A stretch of 64,000 nt of DNA from contig NZ_RFSK01000020.1 of the NCBI RefSeq assembly GCF_009923995.1, positions 1 through 64,000 of the forward strand. Direction: 5' to 3'. Positions 2,691 to 52,547 of the stretch are shown here, piece by piece. This stretch comes from Janthinobacterium sp. GTDB taxonomy: Bacteria; Pseudomonadota; Gammaproteobacteria; Burkholderiales; Burkholderiaceae_D. Positions within the stretch are counted from its first letter, which is position 1. Each line of letters opens with the position of its first letter. The notes below the pieces were generated by a model, which was not told where the DNA came from, ran no database searches, and saw nothing but the letters and a program-made list of their open reading frames with translations. The position numbers and the translations under genes were made by a program.

Positions 2691-3527
2691 TCAGGCAGCG
2701 GCGGCGACGGGCGCGATGCCGTCCTTCGCCGTCGCCAGGGCCGTCAATGGCTTATCAAGCAGATAACCCTGCGCCACGATGGGCAAGCCCGTGGCGGCGG
2801 CGATGCGCTGCAGGGCCGCCAGCGCGGCCGGCGTGTCGAGGCGCTTGAAGACGACGCGGATCTTCGCCGCGTGGCACAGGGTGACGAAGCTGGCGGCCGC
2901 GTCCTCGTCGCTGAGGTTGCCCGCGTCCAGCTTGAAGGCGTGCGGATGCAGCCGCTCCAGCATGCCCGTCGCTTCATGCACGCTGGCCACGTTGATGGCC
3001 AGGCGGAAACCGTTGCGGCGGTAATTGTCGGCCACGTAGTTGAGCAGCCAGCCCTGGTTCGGCGTGACGGCCGGCAATTGCAGCACGATGCGCTCGATGG
3101 GCAGGCCCAGCGCATCGAGGATGCGCTGGAAGGCGTGGCCATGGTTGCTGCTGACGGCGCTGAGCAGGCGGTCGTGCACGTTCAGGTACAGGTCGGACTG
3201 CTCCGCTTCCGGCTGGCGGAAGAAATTAATGGCGTGCAGCATGCGGCACAGCCGGTCCAGTTCCACGGATTCGTCGTCGCTGGCTGCATGGTCGAGCAAA
3301 CGCCACAGCGACAGGCCTTCGTCCGCCTTCGACACGCTGCGCGCCAGGCCCTCGAACGCGAGCAGTTTTCCGCTCTGCAGTTCGCGCAGGGGCTGGAAGG
3401 CGCTCGTCATGGTGCAATTGAAAAAACGCCCCAGCGCCCTGCCCTCGTCATCGAGCCAGACGCTGGTGCCGGCCTGGGTTTGGTGCGACAGGCGGGCCAG
3501 GTAATTTTTCAGGACGGGAAATGGCAT
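2691..3527 (-). CDS. Degenerate EAL-domain protein
   Basis: A 278-aa cytoplasmic protein with an EAL fold from about residue 40 to 265. The signature glutamate is present in a variant motif (FEGLAR, E59) and the end motif is recognisable (IVAQGYLLDKPL), but the usual DDFGTG segment is replaced by NVASVHEATG and the EITE segment by VLQLPAV, so several Mg2+ ligands needed for c-di-GMP hydrolysis are missing. I infer a non-catalytic c-di-GMP receptor or a protein-interaction domain. The start at 3527 is backed by a strong AGGAG site; an open extension upstream is not supported. Divergent from the amidotransferase gene, 234 bases apart. Confidence 0.75.
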   Translation of the reverse strand: MPFPVLKNYLARLSHQTQAGTSVWLDDEGRALGRFFNCTMTSAFQPLRELQSGKLLAFEGLARSVSKADEGLSLWRLLDHAASDDESVELDRLCRMLHAINFFRQPEAEQSDLYLNVHDRLLSAVSSNHGHAFQRILDALGLPIERIVLQLPAVTPNQGWLLNYVADNYRRNGFRLAINVASVHEATGMLERLHPHAFKLDAGNLSDEDAAASFVTLCHAAKIRVVFKRLDTPAALAALQRIAAATGLPIVAQGYLLDKPLTALATAKDGIAPVAAAA

Positions 3528-3672
3528 GGAAGCTCCTTCGTAGGACTGCGCCGCCGGCCCTCGTGGGGCAGGCGACGCCAAAGTGTGCAGACTAAGGCAG
3601 GGTGAACCAAAGGAGAACGAATGGTTTCGCCATTTGATATGCACCCGGCGCATAAGGGCGTAGCGACGGCCA

Positions 3673-3685
3673 GCGCATATCGATA
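3673..3685. promoter_or_regulatory. Half-palindrome GCGCATATCGATA
   Basis: The 13-mer GCGCATATCGATA sits in the divergent EAL/amidotransferase intergenic region. The same 13 bases form most of the perfect 20-bp palindrome upstream of the molbindin gene at 6680-6699. It may be a binding site for a shared regulator; this is inference. Confidence 0.35.
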
Positions 3686-3761
3686 GTCAGAAACATTCCT
3701 TCCCGCCCCCGCCCGCGGCCAGTACTGTGGCCGGGTACCGATATCATCAGGAAGGGCCGCC

Positions 3762-4574
3762 ATGTGCCAGTTACTCGCAATGAACAGCAGCAAGCCGGCC
3801 GCGCTGGGATTTTCCTTCGCCGGCTTCGCCGAGCGGGGCGGCCGCACGGACGAGCACCGCGACGGCTGGGGCATCGCCTATCATTCCGGTAGCGGCTGCA
3901 CCCTGCTCACCGACCACCTGGCCGCCATCGATTCGCCGCTGGCCGCCACGGTGCAGCAGCATCCCGTCAAGGCGAAAAACATCGTCGCGCACATCCGCAA
4001 GGCCACGCAGGGCCGCATCGCGCCGGAAAACACCCACCCGTTCGCCCGCGAACTGTGGGGCAGGACGTGGTCCTTCGCCCACAATGGCGACCTGAAGACG
4101 TGGCGCGCGCCCGCCAACGCGCATTACCATGCCTGCGGCGACACGGACAGCGAACAGGCCTTCTGCCACCTGCTGGCCAGCCTGCGCGCGCGCTTTCCCG
4201 CCGGCGAACCGACGCGCGCCGACCTGCGCGCCGCCATAGCCGAGGTCGCCAAGGAGATCGCCGCGCACGGCACGTTCAACTTCATCCTGTCGGACGGCGA
4301 ACTGCTGTTCGCCCACTGCTCCACGCATCTGCACTATGTGATCCGCGAATACCCATTTTCCGTGGCGCAACTGATCGACTGCGAACGCAGCATCGACTTT
4401 CGCCAGCACAACCACCTCGACGACCGCATCGCCGTCATCGCCACGCACCCGCTGACGGAGAACGAGCAGTGGCTGGCGTTTGCGCCCGGCGAACTGAAAC
4501 TGTTCGCCGGCGGCACCCTGCTGCAGGCGGACGAGCGCGCGCCACGGGGCGTGTACATCCAGATCAGTTACTGA
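3762..4574 (+). CDS. Class II glutamine amidotransferase (YafJ-like)
   Basis: Stand-alone Ntn-type glutaminase domain of 270 aa. The N-terminus is MCQLLAMNS, so Met removal would expose Cys2, the catalytic nucleophile of class II amidotransferases. Downstream motifs fit the family: HRDGWGIAYH, HIRKATQG and the oxyanion-region segment FAHNGDL. No synthase or acceptor domain is fused, as in E. coli YafJ, so the ammonia acceptor is unknown. A clear AGGAAGG ribosome site precedes the ATG. The gene is monocistronic, divergent from the EAL gene and convergent with the GNAT gene. Confidence 0.88.
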   Translation: MCQLLAMNSSKPAALGFSFAGFAERGGRTDEHRDGWGIAYHSGSGCTLLTDHLAAIDSPLAATVQQHPVKAKNIVAHIRKATQGRIAPENTHPFARELWGRTWSFAHNGDLKTWRAPANAHYHACGDTDSEQAFCHLLASLRARFPAGEPTRADLRAAIAEVAKEIAAHGTFNFILSDGELLFAHCSTHLHYVIREYPFSVAQLIDCERSIDFRQHNHLDDRIAVIATHPLTENEQWLAFAPGELKLFAGGTLLQADERAPRGVYIQISY

Positions 4575-4591
4575 GGAGAAATATTGAAGGG

Positions 4592-4622
4592 GAAGAAAAG
4601 GCCCGCCGCCGGATGGGCGGGC
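4592..4622 (-). terminator. Terminator of the GNAT gene
   Basis: GCCCGCC-gccggatg-GGCGGGC hairpin (4601-4622). On the minus strand it is followed by the T-rich run CTTTTCTTCC, so it fits a rho-independent terminator for the leftward GNAT gene. Confidence 0.6.
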
Positions 4623-4640
4623 TGCAGCGCCGGCTGGCCG

Positions 4641-5171
4641 TCAGGCCGAATTGCAGTTGCAAAAGCGCTTGCGCTTGGGGTCGCCGCTGGCGATGCCTGC
4701 GGGATCAATCTGTTTCCAGCAAAAAATCGTTTCCACGCCATAGGGCGAACGCACATTGCCCGCCTCGACATAGCCCTGCTTGACGAAAAAGGCCTGGCTG
4801 CTGGCCGTGCTGTGCAGCTGCAAGGCCTTGATGCCCCACTCGCGCGCCTGCGCTTCCAGCCCTTCCACCAGCGCCTTGCCCGCGCCGCGGCCTTGCGCCT
4901 CGGGCAGCAGGTAGCACAGGGCCAGCTTGCCGGCGCGCGTCAGCAGGCCCACGCCGACGACGGCGCCCTGCTCGACGGCGACCAGCGAAAAATTGGTGGG
5001 CGACGCGAACCAGCACGCCACCATCTGCGGTGTTTTATTGCCCAGCCAGGCTTCCAGGATGGCCGGATCGTCCCGGTGATCGAGGCTGCAGCATTCGACG
5101 ATCGAGCGTCGTAATACATTGCACGCCTCGAAAGCGTCGGTCGATGTTGCAATACGAATTTCAAGACTCAT
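4641..5171 (-). CDS. GNAT family N-acetyltransferase
   Basis: Acetyl-CoA dependent acyltransferase of 176 aa with a single GNAT domain. Strand beta4 and the pyrophosphate loop are visible as CYLLPEAQGRGAGKALVEGL (Q/R-x-x-G-x-G/A), followed by LQLHSTASSQAFFVKQGYVE, the typical C-terminal half. The C-terminus KRKRFCNCNSA adds two cysteines outside the core domain, which is unusual. The acceptor substrate is unknown. Convergent with the amidotransferase gene and followed by a hairpin terminator. Confidence 0.85.
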   Translation of the reverse strand: MSLEIRIATSTDAFEACNVLRRSIVECCSLDHRDDPAILEAWLGNKTPQMVACWFASPTNFSLVAVEQGAVVGVGLLTRAGKLALCYLLPEAQGRGAGKALVEGLEAQAREWGIKALQLHSTASSQAFFVKQGYVEAGNVRSPYGVETIFCWKQIDPAGIASGDPKRKRFCNCNSA

Positions 5172-5472
5172 GTACGCTCACAAAATATTCCAGTTGCCGA
5201 TGCAGGCCGTTTCACCGTGTATCGCGCCATTCGACTATACACCAAGCGGCGCATTCGGGGTTTTTCGCGCCGCGCCACGGGCCCGTTTTGCCTGTGGCAG
5301 CCTGCTTGCAGACTAAGCCCGGATACGCGCCTTGCCCACGAATCATTTCAAAAATCCATATCTGTTTTTTGGCAGAAACGGGAATGTGATCTAAGCATAT
5401 TACGAAAAATTCGTTTCTTTTCCGGCCGGAATTTTAGACTATGTCTATCTATTCTCACAACAAGAGTTCACC
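5172..5472 (+). promoter_or_regulatory. Upstream region of the sulfate-binding protein gene
   Basis: A 301-base AT-richer stretch without a credible gene. It holds ACGAA-AAA-TTCGT (5402-5414) and the palindrome TTCCGGCCGGAA (5420-5431) shortly before a possible -10 TAGACT. The layout suits a controlled promoter of a sulfur-starvation gene (CysB would be the expected regulator), but no CysB site can be assigned with confidence. Confidence 0.45.
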
Positions 5473-6528
5473 ATGTCCCCATTCAACGCCGTAAAGACCG
5501 CCGTCCCGACGCTCACCCAACGCTCGCGCCGCTGGTTCCTGGCCAGCGCCCTGGCCGCCTCCGCCGCCGCCATGAGCCTGCCCATGGCCGCCAGCGCAGC
5601 CGAACCGGTGGTCTTGCTGAACGCCTCCTACGACGTGATGCGCGAGCTGTTCAAGGACGTGAATCCCGCATTTATTGCTGATTGGAAAGCCAAGACAGGC
5701 GAAACCATTACTATCAAGCAATCGCACGGCGGTTCCAGCAAGCAGGCGCGTTCCGTCGCCGATGGCCTGGAAGCGTCCGTCGTGACCATGAACCAGGCCA
5801 ATGACATCGACATCCTCGTCGACCGCGGTCTCGTGGTGGCCGACTGGGCCAAGAAATTCCCGAACAATGCGGCGCCGTTCTATTCCACCATGGTGTACCT
5901 GGTGCGCAAGGGCAATCCAAAACACATCAAGGACTGGGACGACCTGGCCAAGCCCGGCATCAAGGTCATCGTGCCCAATCCCAAGACGTCAGGCAACGGC
6001 CGCTACACCTACCTGGCCGCCTGGGGCTATGCCCTGAAAAAAGGCGGCAGCGAAGCGCAGGCGCGCGACCTGGTCACCAAGCTGTTCAAGAACGTGCCCG
6101 TGCTCGACGGCGGCGGCCGCGGCGCCACCACCACCTTCACGCAGCGCGAAATCGGCGACGTGCTGGTGACGTTTGAAAACGAGGTGCAACTGGTGCGCGC
6201 CGAATTCGGCGACAACTTCGAAGTGGTCTACCCGAGCATCTCCATCCTGGCCGAGTCGCCCGTGGCCGTCGTCGACAAGGTCGTCGACCGCCGCGGCATC
6301 CGCAAGGAAGCCACCGCCTACCTGCAATACCTGTACTCGGAACCGGGCCAGGAACTGGTCGCCAAGCACTACCTGCGTCCCCGTTCGGCGACGGTGGCGA
6401 AGAAATACGCGGCCAGCTTCAAGCCCATCAGCCTGTTTACCATCGACGATGTGTTCGGCGGCTGGAAACAAGCGCAAAAGAAACATTTTGACGATGGCGG
6501 CGAATTCGACAAGATTTATCAGAAGTAA
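5473..6528 (+). CDS. sbp: Periplasmic sulfate-binding protein (Sbp family)
   Basis: Solute receptor of a sulfate/thiosulfate ABC importer, 351 aa with a signal peptide of about 43 residues ending near ASAAEP. Family motifs are clear: LLNASYDVMREL at the mature N-terminus, IKQSHGGSSKQARSVADGL (sulfate-contact segment), PNPKTSGNGRYTYLAAWGYA and TFENEVQL. The leader contains SRRWFLAS, which resembles a twin-arginine motif although the family is normally Sec-exported. The permease and ATPase genes (cysT, cysW, cysA) are not adjacent, so it is an orphan receptor here. A rho-independent terminator follows. Confidence 0.92.
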   Translation: MSPFNAVKTAVPTLTQRSRRWFLASALAASAAAMSLPMAASAAEPVVLLNASYDVMRELFKDVNPAFIADWKAKTGETITIKQSHGGSSKQARSVADGLEASVVTMNQANDIDILVDRGLVVADWAKKFPNNAAPFYSTMVYLVRKGNPKHIKDWDDLAKPGIKVIVPNPKTSGNGRYTYLAAWGYALKKGGSEAQARDLVTKLFKNVPVLDGGGRGATTTFTQREIGDVLVTFENEVQLVRAEFGDNFEVVYPSISILAESPVAVVDKVVDRRGIRKEATAYLQYLYSEPGQELVAKHYLRPRSATVAKKYAASFKPISLFTIDDVFGGWKQAQKKHFDDGGEFDKIYQK

Positions 6529-6545
6529 GTTTGCGCCACATCAAG

Positions 6546-6573
6546 AAAACCGGGATACGTCCCGGTTTTTTTA
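6546..6573 (+). terminator. Rho-independent terminator after sbp
   Basis: AAAACCGGG-atacgt-CCCGGTTTT followed by a T run; a textbook intrinsic terminator 18 bases after the stop codon. Confidence 0.9.
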
Positions 6574-6679
6574 TTGGCGCGCCGTCACTGCGGTTTCCAT
6601 GGCCGCATGGCAAGCCTGCCGAGGATGTACGGACGAGTATAGGCGAATAATCTGCTTGCGCCAGGGCTGGCGCACGCTT

Positions 6680-6699
6680 TGCGCATATCGATATGCGCA
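6680..6699. promoter_or_regulatory. Perfect 20-bp palindrome upstream of molbindin gene
   Basis: TGCGCATATCGATATGCGCA is a perfect inverted repeat about 84 bases before the molbindin start. It is probably a dimeric regulator site. A ModE-type regulator would be the natural guess for a molybdate gene, but the sequence is not the enterobacterial ModE consensus. Confidence 0.5.
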
Positions 6700-6782
6700 T
6701 CGATTCGTGGTCAAAAGGGCGCGCGGGCCGTACTCTGGCCATGTCGCGCCGCACGGCGTATTACGGGCACAAAGGAAACATC

Positions 6783-7001
6783 ATGGCTATCTCGGAAGTG
6801 AATGTACGCAACCAGTTTCGCGGCAAGATCAAGGAAATCATCTTTGGCCCCGTCGTCTCGGAAGTGGACGTGGAAACGCCGCACGGCATCGTCACGTCGG
6901 TGATCACCTCGCGCTCGATCAAGGACCTGGACCTGAAGGTGGGCAGCGAAGTCATCGCCCTGGTGAAATCGACGGAAGTGTCGATCGCCAAGATCCAGTA
7001 A
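6783..7001 (+). CDS. Molbindin (TOBE/Mop-domain molybdate-binding protein)
   Basis: A 72-aa cytoplasmic protein made of one Mop/TOBE domain, the usual size of molbindins, which assemble into rings that store or buffer molybdate or tungstate. Visible features are RNQFRGKIKEI, VETPHGIVTSVIT (the oxyanion-binding SVIT/S segment) and LKVGSEVIALVKSTEVSI. AAAGGAAAC precedes the ATG at 6783; the longer upstream frame is not part of the family. No mod transport genes are nearby. A long hairpin (7020-7055) follows. Confidence 0.88.
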   Translation: MAISEVNVRNQFRGKIKEIIFGPVVSEVDVETPHGIVTSVITSRSIKDLDLKVGSEVIALVKSTEVSIAKIQ

Positions 7002-7019
7002 GCCTCGCCCCACCTGCCG

Positions 7020-7055
7020 ACGCCGCGCCCTTGCCCTCCGGCAGCGGCGCGGCGT
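7020..7055. terminator. Bidirectional hairpin between molbindin and DsrE genes
   Basis: ACGCCGCGCC (7020-7029) and GGCGCGGCGT (7046-7055) form a perfect 10-bp stem between two convergent genes. It has no T tract; likely a shared 3' structure. Confidence 0.5.
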
Positions 7056-7073
7056 TGTCGCATGGACCGGCCT

Positions 7074-7502
7074 CTACGGCTTGATATAGGCGTACCCTTC
7101 CTGCGTCTGCAGGCGGCTCAGCTCGGCCACGCCGGAAGGCACGATGACGGCTTCCGGCAGCACGCGCTGGCGCTCGATGCCGCGCCCCTGCAAGGTGTTG
7201 TTGCAGACGCGAAAGCCCACGCCGCGCCGGACCAGTTCGCGCACCGCTACGTCATACGGGTAGCCATCCTTGTCGATGGCGCCATCGAGCAGGAAATCGA
7301 TGCCGGCGCCGTGGGCGACGAGCACGATGGTCGCCTGCGGGCTGGCGTCCAGGTGATTGCGGATGTTGCGCAGCGCCGCCGCGGCATTGGCGGTGTCGTT
7401 AACGTGGTACACCACCTTTTCCACCTTCGGCGCCGCCTGGACGGCCGTGTACGACAACAGGGAAAGCAGGAAGGCGGCGAAACAGCGGCGTAGCAGTGTC
7501 AT
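7074..7502 (-). CDS. Exported DsrE/DsrF-like protein
   Basis: A 142-aa protein with a signal peptide (about 23 residues, ending VQAAP) and a DsrE-like Rossmann-type fold: KVVYHVNDTANAAAALRNIRNHLDA, TIVLVAHGAGIDFLL and VGFRVCNNTLQGRGI. The single cysteine in RVCNNTL matches the position of the reactive cysteine in DsrE/YchN proteins, which take part in sulfur transfer. Periplasmic members are common in betaproteobacteria, but their role is not established. Monocistronic on the minus strand. Confidence 0.8.
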   Translation of the reverse strand: MTLLRRCFAAFLLSLLSYTAVQAAPKVEKVVYHVNDTANAAAALRNIRNHLDASPQATIVLVAHGAGIDFLLDGAIDKDGYPYDVAVRELVRRGVGFRVCNNTLQGRGIERQRVLPEAVIVPSGVAELSRLQTQEGYAYIKP

Positions 7503-7544
7503 GGAAAATCCAGTCAGTGGCGTTAATGAAAGATTGCCATCATA

Positions 7545-8294
7545 TCAATCCCGGAACAGATACGTAAACGTGCGGCTGACGGGCAGCTTTTCCGTGCTGC
7601 CCCGCACCAGCACCTGCATGCGCTCGGCGTCGATGCGTTCGGCCGCCTCGATGGCCTTCACGTTGACCATGGTGCCGCGGTGGATCTGCCAGAACTGCTC
7701 CGGGTCCAGGCCGCCCAGCAAGTCCTTCAGCGGCGTGCGCACCAGCGCTTCCGAGCCGGCCAGCACCACGCGCGTGTACTTGGTATCGGCCTGGAAGAAC
7801 AGCACGTCGTCGATATCGATCAGGCGGATCTGCTTGCCCACGCTGGCCTTGATCCATTTCATCTTTTCGCGCGGCGGCGCCGGCAGCGCGGCCCGCAGCG
7901 ACTGCAGCAGGTGCGCCATGTCCGCCGGCTGGCCGCCCAGCTTGTCGCCCAGGCGGGCCAGGGCCCGCTGCAGGCGCTCGGCCTGCACGGGTTTCAACAG
8001 GTAGTCGACGGCGCCCGCGTCGAACGCATCGACGGCATACTGGTCGTAGGCTGTGACGAACACCACGTGGGCCCGCTTGCCGATGCGCTCGGCCACTTCC
8101 AGGCCGGACAGGCCCGGCATGCGGATGTCGAGGAACACCACTTCCGGCTCATGCTCGAGAAAGCCGTCCCAGGCGTCGTTGCCGTTTTCCGCCACCAGCA
8201 CCACCCGGGCCTGCGGCCATGCCTGTTCCAGCAAGCCCTGCAGGCGCTCGCGCATCAGGGGTTCATCCTCGGCAATCATGATCGTCGTTTTCAT
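7545..8294 (-). CDS. LytTR-family response regulator
   Basis: A 249-aa regulator with an N-terminal receiver domain (phosphoacceptor D56 in VVFLDIRMPG, acidic pair in AEDEP, K in LLKPVQ) and a C-terminal LytTR DNA-binding domain from about residue 145 (IRLIDIDDVLFFQADTKYT to LPVSRTFTYLF). It is the output partner of the kinase gene, whose stop overlaps this start by four bases (ATGA), so the two are translationally coupled. Family members (AlgR, LytR) control surface or exopolysaccharide genes; the targets here are unknown. Confidence 0.92.
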   Translation of the reverse strand: MKTTIMIAEDEPLMRERLQGLLEQAWPQARVVLVAENGNDAWDGFLEHEPEVVFLDIRMPGLSGLEVAERIGKRAHVVFVTAYDQYAVDAFDAGAVDYLLKPVQAERLQRALARLGDKLGGQPADMAHLLQSLRAALPAPPREKMKWIKASVGKQIRLIDIDDVLFFQADTKYTRVVLAGSEALVRTPLKDLLGGLDPEQFWQIHRGTMVNVKAIEAAERIDAERMQVLVRGSTEKLPVSRTFTYLFRD

Positions 8295-49782: not shown

Positions 49783-50823
49783 ATGAACCGGATTCTTTCC
49801 CGCCTCCCTGCCCTGCTGCTGGCACTGTCCTGCCACGCGGCGTTCCTGGCGCCGGCGCAGGCCCGCGATGCCGCCACCCTGCCCGCCCTCAGCCCGCGCC
49901 AGCAGGCGCTGATGGCGACAGTCGTGGGCAATGCCGCCCATCCGCGCATCCTGCAGGTGCGCCTGGACGAACTGCACCCAACGCAAGCGGCCATCGGCTA
50001 CGACCAGGTGTACTACAAGCTGGGACGCTATGCGGCCGAAGAACAGCACATCGCCCACATCGCCAAGCCAAAGAAATTTGCCGACCTGTGCGAAGCCAAT
50101 GGCCAGGGCGACGTCCTGCCCGGCACGGCCAACGTGGCCGGCGCCACCCTCGCCGCGCCGCCGCCCGGCTACCGCTGCAAGGCGGCCGTGGCCAGCCGTC
50201 CCGACGACATGAAAACCGTCGTCATCGGCCCCCGCGGCGTCCTGTACCTGACGGACGGCCACCACACCTTTTCCACCTTCCGCGCGGCCGATGGCGGACG
50301 CAACGGGCAACTGCAGGTCTGGGTCAAGGTCAGCGACAACTTCAGCGCCCTGAGCGAACCCGCGTTCTGGGCCCGCATGCAGCAGGAAAGCAAGGTCTGG
50401 CTGAAGAACGGCCGCAACCAGCCGATCACGCCGCAACAGCTGCCGTCGTCCATCGGCCTGCAGTCGCTCGGCGACGACCCTTACCGTTCGCTCGTCTACT
50501 TCACGCGTGAAGTGGGCTACGCACCACCCGGGCATGCCACGGAATTCCTCGAGTTCTACTGGGCCGACTGGCTGCGTGCCCAGCCTGCGCCGGACCTGGC
50601 GCGCGTGAACCGGCTCGATCCGGCCGCATATGCCGGCGCCATCCTGCAGGCGGCACAGGCGATGGTGGCGTTGCGGCCCGATGCCATCGTCAGCGGCGGC
50701 AAGCGGGCGGCGGACCTGGGCGCGCTGGACGAAATCGACCACGAGGCACTCGATGAATTGACGCAGGAGAAAGGCAAGCTGCGCTACGCCATCGGCTACC
50801 GCAAGTCGCTGCCACGCCAGTAA
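49783..50823 (+). CDS. Exported ParB/sulfiredoxin-like (ParBc_2) protein, copy 1
   Basis: A 346-aa protein with a signal peptide (about 27 residues, ending PAQARD). The mature part matches the pattern I recall for PF08857, a putative ParB-like nuclease family: LQVRLDELHPTQ, GYDQVYYKLGRY, KKFADLCEANGQ, and LYLTDGHHTF (D158, H160, H161), which aligns with the ParB/sulfiredoxin phosphate-binding loop. Two cysteines, C103 and C132, are kept in the tandem paralog and could form a disulfide. It cannot act on chromosomal DNA if it is periplasmic, so the annotated nuclease role is doubtful. GGAG precedes the ATG. Confidence 0.75.
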   Translation: MNRILSRLPALLLALSCHAAFLAPAQARDAATLPALSPRQQALMATVVGNAAHPRILQVRLDELHPTQAAIGYDQVYYKLGRYAAEEQHIAHIAKPKKFADLCEANGQGDVLPGTANVAGATLAAPPPGYRCKAAVASRPDDMKTVVIGPRGVLYLTDGHHTFSTFRAADGGRNGQLQVWVKVSDNFSALSEPAFWARMQQESKVWLKNGRNQPITPQQLPSSIGLQSLGDDPYRSLVYFTREVGYAPPGHATEFLEFYWADWLRAQPAPDLARVNRLDPAAYAGAILQAAQAMVALRPDAIVSGGKRAADLGALDEIDHEALDELTQEKGKLRYAIGYRKSLPRQ

Positions 50824-50900
50824 CCTTTCCTCATGTCATCATCCTGACATCTGCGCCCGCTAGCATGTCGGCACTTTTCAGCCGACATCACGGGACAGAC

Positions 50901-52547
50901 ATGTACAACAGCACCACCTTGCAGCGCCGCAGCCCCCTCGCCATCGCCGTCGCCATCGCACTGGGCAGCACCCTGGCCGCCTGCGGCGGCAGCGATACGC
51001 CGGCAAGCAGCAACGACACCATCGCCCCGGCCCGCATCGTCAGCGTCGTGGCCGCCACGGGCAAGGCCGTCGCAGGCAGCGTCATCAGCGTGTACGATGC
51101 CAACAAGGACAAGGTCGGCGCCAGTGCGGCGGACGCCAGCGGCAAGGTCAACATCGCCATCAGCGCGGCTGCCAAGGCGCCCTTCCTCATTACCACCACC
51201 ACCGCCAGCGGCGACGTGCTGTACACCGTCTCGCTGAAGGAAAAAACCGTCAACCTGACACCGCTCACCTCCGTCATCACCATGCAGCTGCTGGGCAGCG
51301 CACCGGCCAGCGCGCCGGCGGCCAGCCTGGCGGCCATCGACGCGGCCAAGCTGCAAGCGGCGCAGACGCAGCTGGGCACGGCCCTGGCAGCCCCCCTGCA
51401 AACCCTGGGCATGGCGGCCAATTATGACTTCGTCAACGGCGCCCTGACGCCCGGCAGCAAGGACCCGGCCGACGTCCTGCTCGACAACCTGCAGGTGAAA
51501 CAGAGCGGCACCGATATCGACATCGTCAATGCCAGCGGCAGCATCGTCGCGCAAATCCTCAACGGCGGCGCACCGCTGGCCACCGGCAAGAGCGTGCTGG
51601 AAACGCCACCCGTCCTGAGCGCGCGCCAGCAAGTGCTGGCCGCCACGGCCGCCGGCACCGACGCGGCCCCCGTCTTCCTGCAGGTGTCGCTCGACGAGCT
51701 GCGTCCCACGCAGCCGGCCGTCGGCTACGACCAGATCTACTACAAGCTGGGCCGCTATGGCGCGGAAGACCAGATCATGGCCAAGACCAACAAGCCAAAG
51801 AAATTCGCCGAACTGTGCGAAGCCAATGGCCAGGACGACGTCATCACCAAGACGGCCAACGTGGCCGGCGCCACCCTGAGCAACCCGCCTGCCACCTTCC
51901 AGTGCAAGTCCGCCGTGGGCACCAAGCCGGGCGACATGAAGACCGTCGTCATCGGCCCGAACGGCACGCTGTACCTGACGGATGGCCACCACACGTTCAG
52001 CGCCTTCTGGGACGCCGACAATGGCCAGAACCACCAGCTGAAAGTCTGGGTCAAGGTGACGGACAATTTCAGCAAGCTCAATGAATATGATTTCTGGGCG
52101 CAGATGAAAAAGGTCAACAAGGTCTGGCTCAAGGATGGCAGCAACAAGGCGATCGCCACCAGCCAGCTGCCGGCGTCCATCGGCCTGAAATCGCTGGGCA
52201 ACGATCCTTACCGCGCCCTCGTCTACTTCACGCGCGACGCGGGCTACGTGGTGCCGGCGACTTCCACGGAATTCCTCGAGTTCTACTGGGCCGACTGGCT
52301 GCGCAAGCAGGCCGCCGTCGACCTGACCAAGACGGATACCAGCGACATCACCAGCTACATGGCCACCATCAAGACGGCTTCGCTGGCGATGGCGGGCCTG
52401 AAGGCGGGCGACATCGTCAGCGGCGGCGTCACGGCGCAGGCGCTGGGCTGGACGGGCGTCTTCAGCCAGGCGGCGCTGGACGACCTGGTCACGCCGACGG
52501 GCAAGCTGAGCTATTCCATCGCGTACAAGAAATCGCTGACGAAGTAA
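50901..52547 (+). CDS. Lipoprotein with ParB/sulfiredoxin-like (ParBc_2) domain, copy 2
   Basis: A 548-aa paralog of the preceding gene. It begins with a lipoprotein leader (lipobox LAAC, C28), then an Ala-rich module (about 42-235) that resembles a carboxypeptidase-regulatory or Ig-like domain (AGSVISVYDANKDKVGA), and then the ParBc_2-like domain (about 238-548) with DGHHTF (D361, H363, H364) and the conserved C306 and C335. Well over half the aligned positions are identical to copy 1, including blocks of near-identical DNA, so this is a tandem duplication with an added anchor module. It lies 77 bases after copy 1 and ends at a strong terminator. Confidence 0.75.
   Translation: MYNSTTLQRRSPLAIAVAIALGSTLAACGGSDTPASSNDTIAPARIVSVVAATGKAVAGSVISVYDANKDKVGASAADASGKVNIAISAAAKAPFLITTTTASGDVLYTVSLKEKTVNLTPLTSVITMQLLGSAPASAPAASLAAIDAAKLQAAQTQLGTALAAPLQTLGMAANYDFVNGALTPGSKDPADVLLDNLQVKQSGTDIDIVNASGSIVAQILNGGAPLATGKSVLETPPVLSARQQVLAATAAGTDAAPVFLQVSLDELRPTQPAVGYDQIYYKLGRYGAEDQIMAKTNKPKKFAELCEANGQDDVITKTANVAGATLSNPPATFQCKSAVGTKPGDMKTVVIGPNGTLYLTDGHHTFSAFWDADNGQNHQLKVWVKVTDNFSKLNEYDFWAQMKKVNKVWLKDGSNKAIATSQLPASIGLKSLGNDPYRALVYFTRDAGYVVPATSTEFLEFYWADWLRKQAAVDLTKTDTSDITSYMATIKTASLAMAGLKAGDIVSGGVTAQALGWTGVFSQAALDDLVTPTGKLSYSIAYKKSLTK

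Follow-up and report, generated by a model that had tools for sequence, protein, structure and literature searches.

In 2016, an exoproteome study of Pseudomonas fluorescens SBW25 found that phosphate-starved cells secrete a lipoprotein of the Pfam family PF08857 (ParBc_2), for which its text offers just a guess of UshA-like function (PMC5082522). No follow-up of this lipoprotein was recognised among the papers that our searches listed, and one strain is thus far the published case of PF08857 secretion as part of the phosphate response. Here we describe two tandem genes for exported PF08857 proteins, A and B, in a 64,000-nucleotide window of Janthinobacterium sp. (RefSeq assembly GCF_009923995.1, contig NZ_RFSK01000020.1, positions 1 to 64,000 of the forward strand). 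A and B have in common with the SBW25 lipoprotein the PF08857 domain, secretion and a probable link to phosphate starvation, a likeness at the level of the Pfam domain. New here are the exported clade to which the pair belongs, the promoter of gene B, the linkage of relatives to porin and pyrophosphatase genes, and the loss of an arginine required for nucleotide binding elsewhere in the fold. A role of the exported PF08857 proteins in phosphorus acquisition appears probable, and we favour, with some reserve, the reading that A and B are a Pho-regulated periplasmic or outer-membrane enzyme that releases phosphorus, perhaps yielding pyrophosphate.

The only close solved structure is that of Atu1540 (2HWJ), and no paper naming this protein was found. 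The AlphaFold model (mean predicted local distance difference test score, 91.9) matched it in Foldseek with an E value of 5e-12, while nothing else reached 0.001 and all further matches were at 0.2 or worse. VIA-align superposed 187 residues with a Z score of 19.3 and 28% identity, and the sequence match was at E 1e-10. Atu1540 differs from A and B in having its PTQ motif near the N-terminus, as in the leaderless branch of the family (see below), and DHHH in place of DGHH; no cysteine aligns with the conserved pair of A and B in the stretches shown. Of the 36 entries in the VIA-align list, which was pre-filtered by Foldseek and has low Z values beyond 2HWJ, the first 32 were 2HWJ and then solely ParB/sulfiredoxin (Srx)-type entries with Z scores from 5.0 to 3.0 (sulfiredoxin, ParB, Noc, KorB, PadC, SerK, SbnI and 1vk1), and the first unrelated entry scored 2.7. 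Membership in the ParB/Srx superfamily, which a preliminary description of the locus had proposed from its letters, is thereby supported by the predicted structure, at low Z.

The pair differs from the described members of this superfamily. The ParB and Noc CTPases share the fold (Z of approximately 4.7), but A and B are exported, lack the box II arginine and have neither the helix-turn-helix domain (PF17762) nor the dimerisation domain of ParB among the hmmscan matches at E values up to 1. The preliminary remark that DNA partitioning makes no sense for these proteins was right. SerK and SbnI also have the fold of A and B (5x0b, Z 4.2; 5ujd, Z 3.2) but are kinases with nucleotide donors, whereas A and B sit outside the ATP pool. 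Sulfiredoxin (6ky4, Z 5.0) carries its catalytic cysteine in the phosphate-binding motif, and the corresponding motif of A and B contains none. The archaeal free serine kinase TK0378 was likewise annotated as ParB (PMC5120207). A survey of the fold was conducted through PF02195 (TIGR00180 for ParB), and PF08857 is absent from its main text (PMC12704722). A profile search of Protein Data Bank sequences retrieved neither SerK nor Srx nor ParB, so that a residue-by-residue mapping of DGHH to the motifs of SerK and Srx was not possible; its two RACK1 matches (E ~1e-4) look like chance. The pair should not be named CTPases, ParB proteins or sulfiredoxins.

Gene A (49783–50823, forward strand, ATG at 49783) encodes 346 residues, and gene B (50901–52547, forward strand, with an alternative in-frame upstream ATG at 50865) encodes a lipoprotein of 548 residues. 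Both products scored far above the curated PF08857 cut-off of 23.6 bits in hmmscan against Pfam (A, 154.3 bits and E 3.7e-45; B, 150.5 bits and E 5.5e-44), which bears out the family assignment suggested earlier. They are tandem paralogs with 60% identity across 314 residues, and the motifs PTQ, GYDQ.YYKLGRY and LTDGHHTF are found in both. The PF08857 domain of A (49954–50577, forward strand) contains PTQ at 66–68, C103, C132, the motif D158-G-H-H161, R235, R242 and E257. That of B (51681–52307, forward strand) contains C306 and C335, equivalent to C103 and C132, and DGHH at 361–364, in which D361, H363 and H364 correspond to D158, H160 and H161. A begins with a predicted Sec signal peptide (49783–49863, forward strand; MNRILSRLPALLLALSCHAAFLAPAQA followed by RD, the predicted cut lying between AQA and RD), read from the sequence with a mean Kyte–Doolittle value of 2.14 for its hydrophobic 12-mer and a motif like a ribosome-binding site upstream. 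B has the lipobox LAAC with Cys28 (50973–50984, forward strand).

The position of gene B behind a putative PhoB-type promoter provides the link to phosphate in the host itself. The Pho box consensus is CTGTCAT-N4-CTGTCAT. Upstream regions were scored out of 17, namely 14 letters of the Pho box and 3 of a −10 element located 9–11 bp further on. A predicted Pho box, ATGTCAT-CATC-CTGACAT (50833–50850, forward strand), matches at 12 of 14 letters and starts 68 bp before the ATG of gene B, and a predicted −10 element, TAGCAT (50861–50866, forward strand), follows 10 bp past it. Sites in the same layout precede pstS in the host genome, as well as a GNAT acyltransferase-like gene and a gene for a calcineurin-type phosphoesterase lipoprotein. 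With at most two mismatches, 39 Pho-box sites were found in the host genome and 8 in the backward control; approximately one-fifth of the sites would be expected by chance, and the gene B site alone is therefore unremarkable. The Pho box is, in addition, retained at 68–69 bp in the Janthinobacterium orthologs of gene B. Among non-redundant upstream regions, 10 of the 32 from exported members scored at least 13 of 17 compared with 2 of the 340 from control genes of the same loci (Fisher p = 3e-10), where three of the ten are Janthinobacterium gene B orthologs and not independent, and where the two sets were treated unequally (first starts from a mechanical gene caller for the controls; starts picked by leader and ribosome-binding site for the exported members). 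Split by base composition, the counts were 5/19 against 1/242 and 4/10 against 1/98. By its predicted promoter layout, gene B fits the Pho regulon, and it would be controlled by PhoB in vivo. Other genes with predicted Pho boxes in the host (loci L117, L133, L114 and L115) encode GNAT acyltransferase-like, calcineurin-type phosphoesterase lipoprotein, TonB plug and transglycosylase SLT proteins.

In other genera, the exported PF08857 gene is in some loci linked to porin or pyrophosphatase genes. In Pseudomonas sp. NCCP-436, it lies behind a gene for a phosphate-selective porin (PF07396), and it faces one for an inorganic pyrophosphatase (PF00719) with a signal peptide. Among the 30 Pseudomonas loci fetched, including this one, a PF07396-type porin gene lies directly upstream on the same strand in nine, four of which also have the exported pyrophosphatase gene (4/30). 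Besides the NCCP-436 pair, five of these porins and three of the pyrophosphatases were checked by Pfam, and leaders were checked for all four pyrophosphatases. In Vibrionaceae, 10 of the 29 newly fetched loci encode a fusion of the PF08857 domain with a pyrophosphatase, and one of them (L201) is identical with L096, the Photobacterium locus that first revealed the fusion; three more fusions were found elsewhere (L142, L194 and L145; two Vibrio pelagius plasmids and genome G365). The pyrophosphatase signature is present in all three fusions examined (L096, L142 and L047). A PF00719 scan of 20 genomes detected the family in 18, with 24 genes in total. Only two of these look exported, and each is either fused with the exported PF08857 gene or next to it. 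The second pyrophosphatases carried by Pseudomonas NFR16, Acinetobacter and Burkholderia are leaderless. A shared sequence, CTGCAATATATCTCTAAC, lies 64–80 bp upstream of each of the four exported pyrophosphatase genes identified (L281, L282, L283 and L289) and matches the Pho box at only 9 of 14 letters.

By their sequences, A and B fall into a single clade of exported proteins with two cysteines from Pseudomonadota. In the domain alignment, 95 of the 102 rows were distinct and aligned, comprising 78 exported and 15 leaderless rows among them, and 64 of 200 rows were left for the tree after near copies had been removed. The exported core (36 tree rows) forms one side of a branch with a support of 99 in the SH-like approximate likelihood-ratio test, and five further rows that bear leaders by eye fall outside it. 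A and B cluster together, also with a support of 99, which places the duplication that gave rise to the tandem in the Janthinobacterium lineage. A hydrophobic leader is present in 79 of 83 distinct exported-clade proteins (38 with a lipobox; the four without one are L080, L085, L098 and L104) and in 0 of 14 leaderless-clade proteins; the start picker favoured leaders but was identical for both sets, 6 of 115 homologous frames without a usable start were dropped, and L018 and L030 were excluded from the exported counts. Both C103 and C132 are conserved in 77 of the 78 aligned exported domains, and the leaderless rows have no cysteine at either position (15/15). The first description of both paralogs as exported, with two conserved cysteines in each, was right. 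The sole exception among the 78, L098 from Candidatus Burkholderia humilis, lacks both cysteines and a clear leader and is perhaps a decaying copy in an endosymbiont. Among 37 Vibrionaceae loci, 33 (8 of them already in the first locus set) fit the motif pattern, each having two and only two cysteines between PTQ and DGHH, and the remaining four (L222–L225) retain the pair as well. Kept or lost jointly, the two cysteines behave like a structural pair, as would be expected of a disulfide in an oxidising compartment.

D74, Q75, R82, D158, H160, H161, R235, R242 and E257 are invariant in a 35-row alignment covering Oxalobacteraceae, Burkholderia, Pseudomonas, Marinomonas, Vibrio and Acinetobacter, and the larger alignment keeps the same polar set throughout (78/78 rows). 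The DGHH motif is likewise present in all 78 exported rows, with no cysteine within it. In the AlphaFold model, it sits between a strand (154–156) and a helix (160–172), the kind of position at which the ParB/Srx superfamily binds phosphate. Nucleotide triphosphate (NTP) binding of the ParB type needs the arginine of the box II motif GxxR (PMC12704722). The residue following DGHH in the 78 exported rows is threonine (52), glycine (25) or isoleucine (1) and in no case arginine, and in the 15 leaderless rows it is phenylalanine (13) or leucine (2). A putative nucleotide pocket lined by D158, H160 and H161, a question raised in the preliminary description, would be without this arginine, and one divergent exported subgroup (see below) retains the two histidines but not D158.

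At least one PF08857 match was found in 28 of 39 searched genomes of the host genus, and the PF08857 gene in 36 of 298 Pseudomonas and 60 of 247 Vibrionaceae genomes. The host has a third PF08857 gene elsewhere in its genome, which encodes a leaderless protein of 206 residues. In the host family, the leaderless gene adjoins a gene for a SulP-type sulfate/anion transporter in 14 of 15 loci, mostly of one genus. Examples of the SulP neighbourhood are the host's own copy (L179, C90), L001 and L182, and it was also observed outside the host family in L170, L186 and L195. Both gene orders occur, and many other leaderless loci have no SulP gene within the flanks seen. That both PF08857 branches can adjoin genes for the handling of inorganic anions may hint at a shared chemistry.

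The phosphorus-releasing role that we favour for A and B would proceed as follows. A, secreted, and B, lipid-anchored, would represent a divergent branch of the ParB/sulfiredoxin fold that scavenges phosphorus when phosphate is scarce, and PhoB would turn on B via its own promoter. The domain would hydrolyse environmental phosphorus compounds, such as nucleotides or polyphosphate-like phosphoanhydrides, to pyrophosphate and/or phosphate. In some relatives, the phosphate-selective porin would pass substrate or product across the outer membrane, and the adjacent or fused exported pyrophosphatase would split the pyrophosphate. With no ATP supplied beyond the cytoplasm, the exported domain is most likely hydrolytic. 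An enzyme that consumes pyrophosphate is joined or adjacent to it in two bacterial families, and the simplest inference is that the domain makes pyrophosphate, with or without phosphate. As for the substrate, nucleotides would fit the history of the superfamily and polyphosphates would fit the porin. We regard anhydride chemistry of the exported domain as a possibility worth serious consideration, though rather less likely than not. It is more speculative still that the exported clade is a new class of phosphohydrolase, built on the ParB/Srx fold and acting outside the cell, that is devoid of the arginine of the NTP switch and releases pyrophosphate from environmental phosphoanhydrides for a dedicated exported pyrophosphatase and phosphate-type porin. 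No description of such a three-step periplasmic phosphorus route (PF08857 protein, pyrophosphatase and porin) was found in our literature searches.

Several observations weigh against this reading. Of the non-redundant exported upstream regions, 22 of 32 scored below 13. Gene A has no Pho box (best match 9/14, or 10/17 with the −10 element), and the promoter of B lies after A. No clear Pho box was found at any Pseudomonas member examined, where the porin and pyrophosphatase genes are preceded only by partial or half-site-like sequences. Within 1.5 kb, the porin is absent from 21 and the pyrophosphatase from 26 of the 30 Pseudomonas loci, and most exported members have neither within the flanks seen. 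The cassette is absent from the Janthinobacterium host, whose genome has no PF07396 gene and a single PF00719 gene encoding a leaderless, cytoplasmic enzyme. If DGHH corresponds to box II, the NTP-binding arginine would be absent from the exported clade. Moreover, in the four divergent Vibrionaceae loci L222–L225 (genomes G535, G523, G571 and G606), which retain the cysteine pair and the two histidines, D158 is replaced by glutamine, asparagine or lysine and R235 by leucine, so that the exported clade does not require these two residues throughout. This subgroup is perhaps a non-catalytic side branch.

Such members weaken an enzymatic reading and strengthen the alternative of a non-catalytic binder of phosphorus compounds (nucleotide or polyphosphate) that feeds other enzymes, including the pyrophosphatase wherever one is attached. 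Lipid anchoring, fusion with a separate catalytic domain and loss of the box II arginine would also suit a binder. The invariant polar set from D74 to E257, on the other hand, exceeds the usual needs of simple binding, and we consider this alternative rather improbable. The main rival, which seems unlikely but somewhat less so, is an extracellular DNase or RNase that breaks down environmental nucleic acid for phosphorus under phosphate starvation. The Pho link serves this explanation equally, the Pfam label favours it, DNase activity of several ParB-fold proteins has been cited (PMC5512222), and the pyrophosphatase fusion could merely bundle two independent scavenging activities. However, whether the fold deserves to be labelled a nuclease is a matter of dispute (PMC3482391), and PF0380, formerly reported to be a nuclease, is closely homologous to the serine kinase TK0378 (PMC5120207). 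A nuclease yields no pyrophosphate, and the fused or adjacent exported pyrophosphatases are thus not explained by nuclease activity alone.

The preliminary description had named three further alternatives: a periplasmic phosphoryl enzyme, a redox enzyme and a nuclease against incoming DNA. The first of these best fits the new evidence, and the other two are not supported. A phosphoryl-transferring kinase or redox enzyme akin to SerK or sulfiredoxin would share the fold, yet it is very improbable in the periplasm: a kinase would have no ATP at hand there and the box II arginine is gone in 78 of 78 rows, while a sulfiredoxin-like reaction is difficult to reconcile with a DGHH motif free of cysteine and with a cysteine pair that is located elsewhere and behaves as a structural one. 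ParB-fold toxins (Tox-ParB and Tox-ParBL1) are known from polymorphic toxin systems (PMC3482391), but it is hardly credible here that the pair are toxins released by the cell or nucleases that defend it against incoming DNA. The conserved domain matched no family of NCBIfam, PADLOC or PHROG and no phage record, neither A nor B has a toxin-delivery domain by Pfam (no systematic search for immunity partners was made), and the context of the family is phosphate. It is this phosphate-starvation link, drawn from the promoter of B, the neighbouring porin, the exported or fused pyrophosphatase and the phosphate-starved exoproteome, that goes beyond the preliminary description.

Between the lipobox and the PF08857 domain, gene B encodes an N-terminal spacer (50985–51599, forward strand) that is weakly Ig/MG-like, with bMG3 and Big_6 matches at E ~1e-3, both under their cut-offs. 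As read from the open reading frames, the pair is flanked by TetR- and MFS-like genes upstream and by ABC-transporter genes downstream, and this local context is uninformative as to function. Elsewhere in the family, a gene of the isochorismatase/cysteine-hydrolase family adjoins the exported PF08857 gene, in differing orientations, on two Vibrio plasmids (L142 and L143). In L178 (G483; 3105–8177), the exported PF08857 gene is followed by response regulator-like and histidine kinase-like genes, with a TonB-dependent receptor gene (Pfam) on the opposite strand. In L030/L191 (G109), the PF08857 domain lies near the C-terminal end of a long frame (693–975 residues) whose N-terminal part has no Pfam match.

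If the phosphorus-releasing role holds, a family that databases carry under the label "putative ParB-like nuclease" would be reassigned to the exoproteins of phosphate starvation. Its chemistry would be open to direct tests through the operon of porin, ParB-fold protein and exported pyrophosphatase and through the fusion. The studied members of the ParB/Srx fold use NTPs inside cells, and the reach of the fold would then extend to the turnover of phosphorus outside the cells of soil and marine Pseudomonadota.

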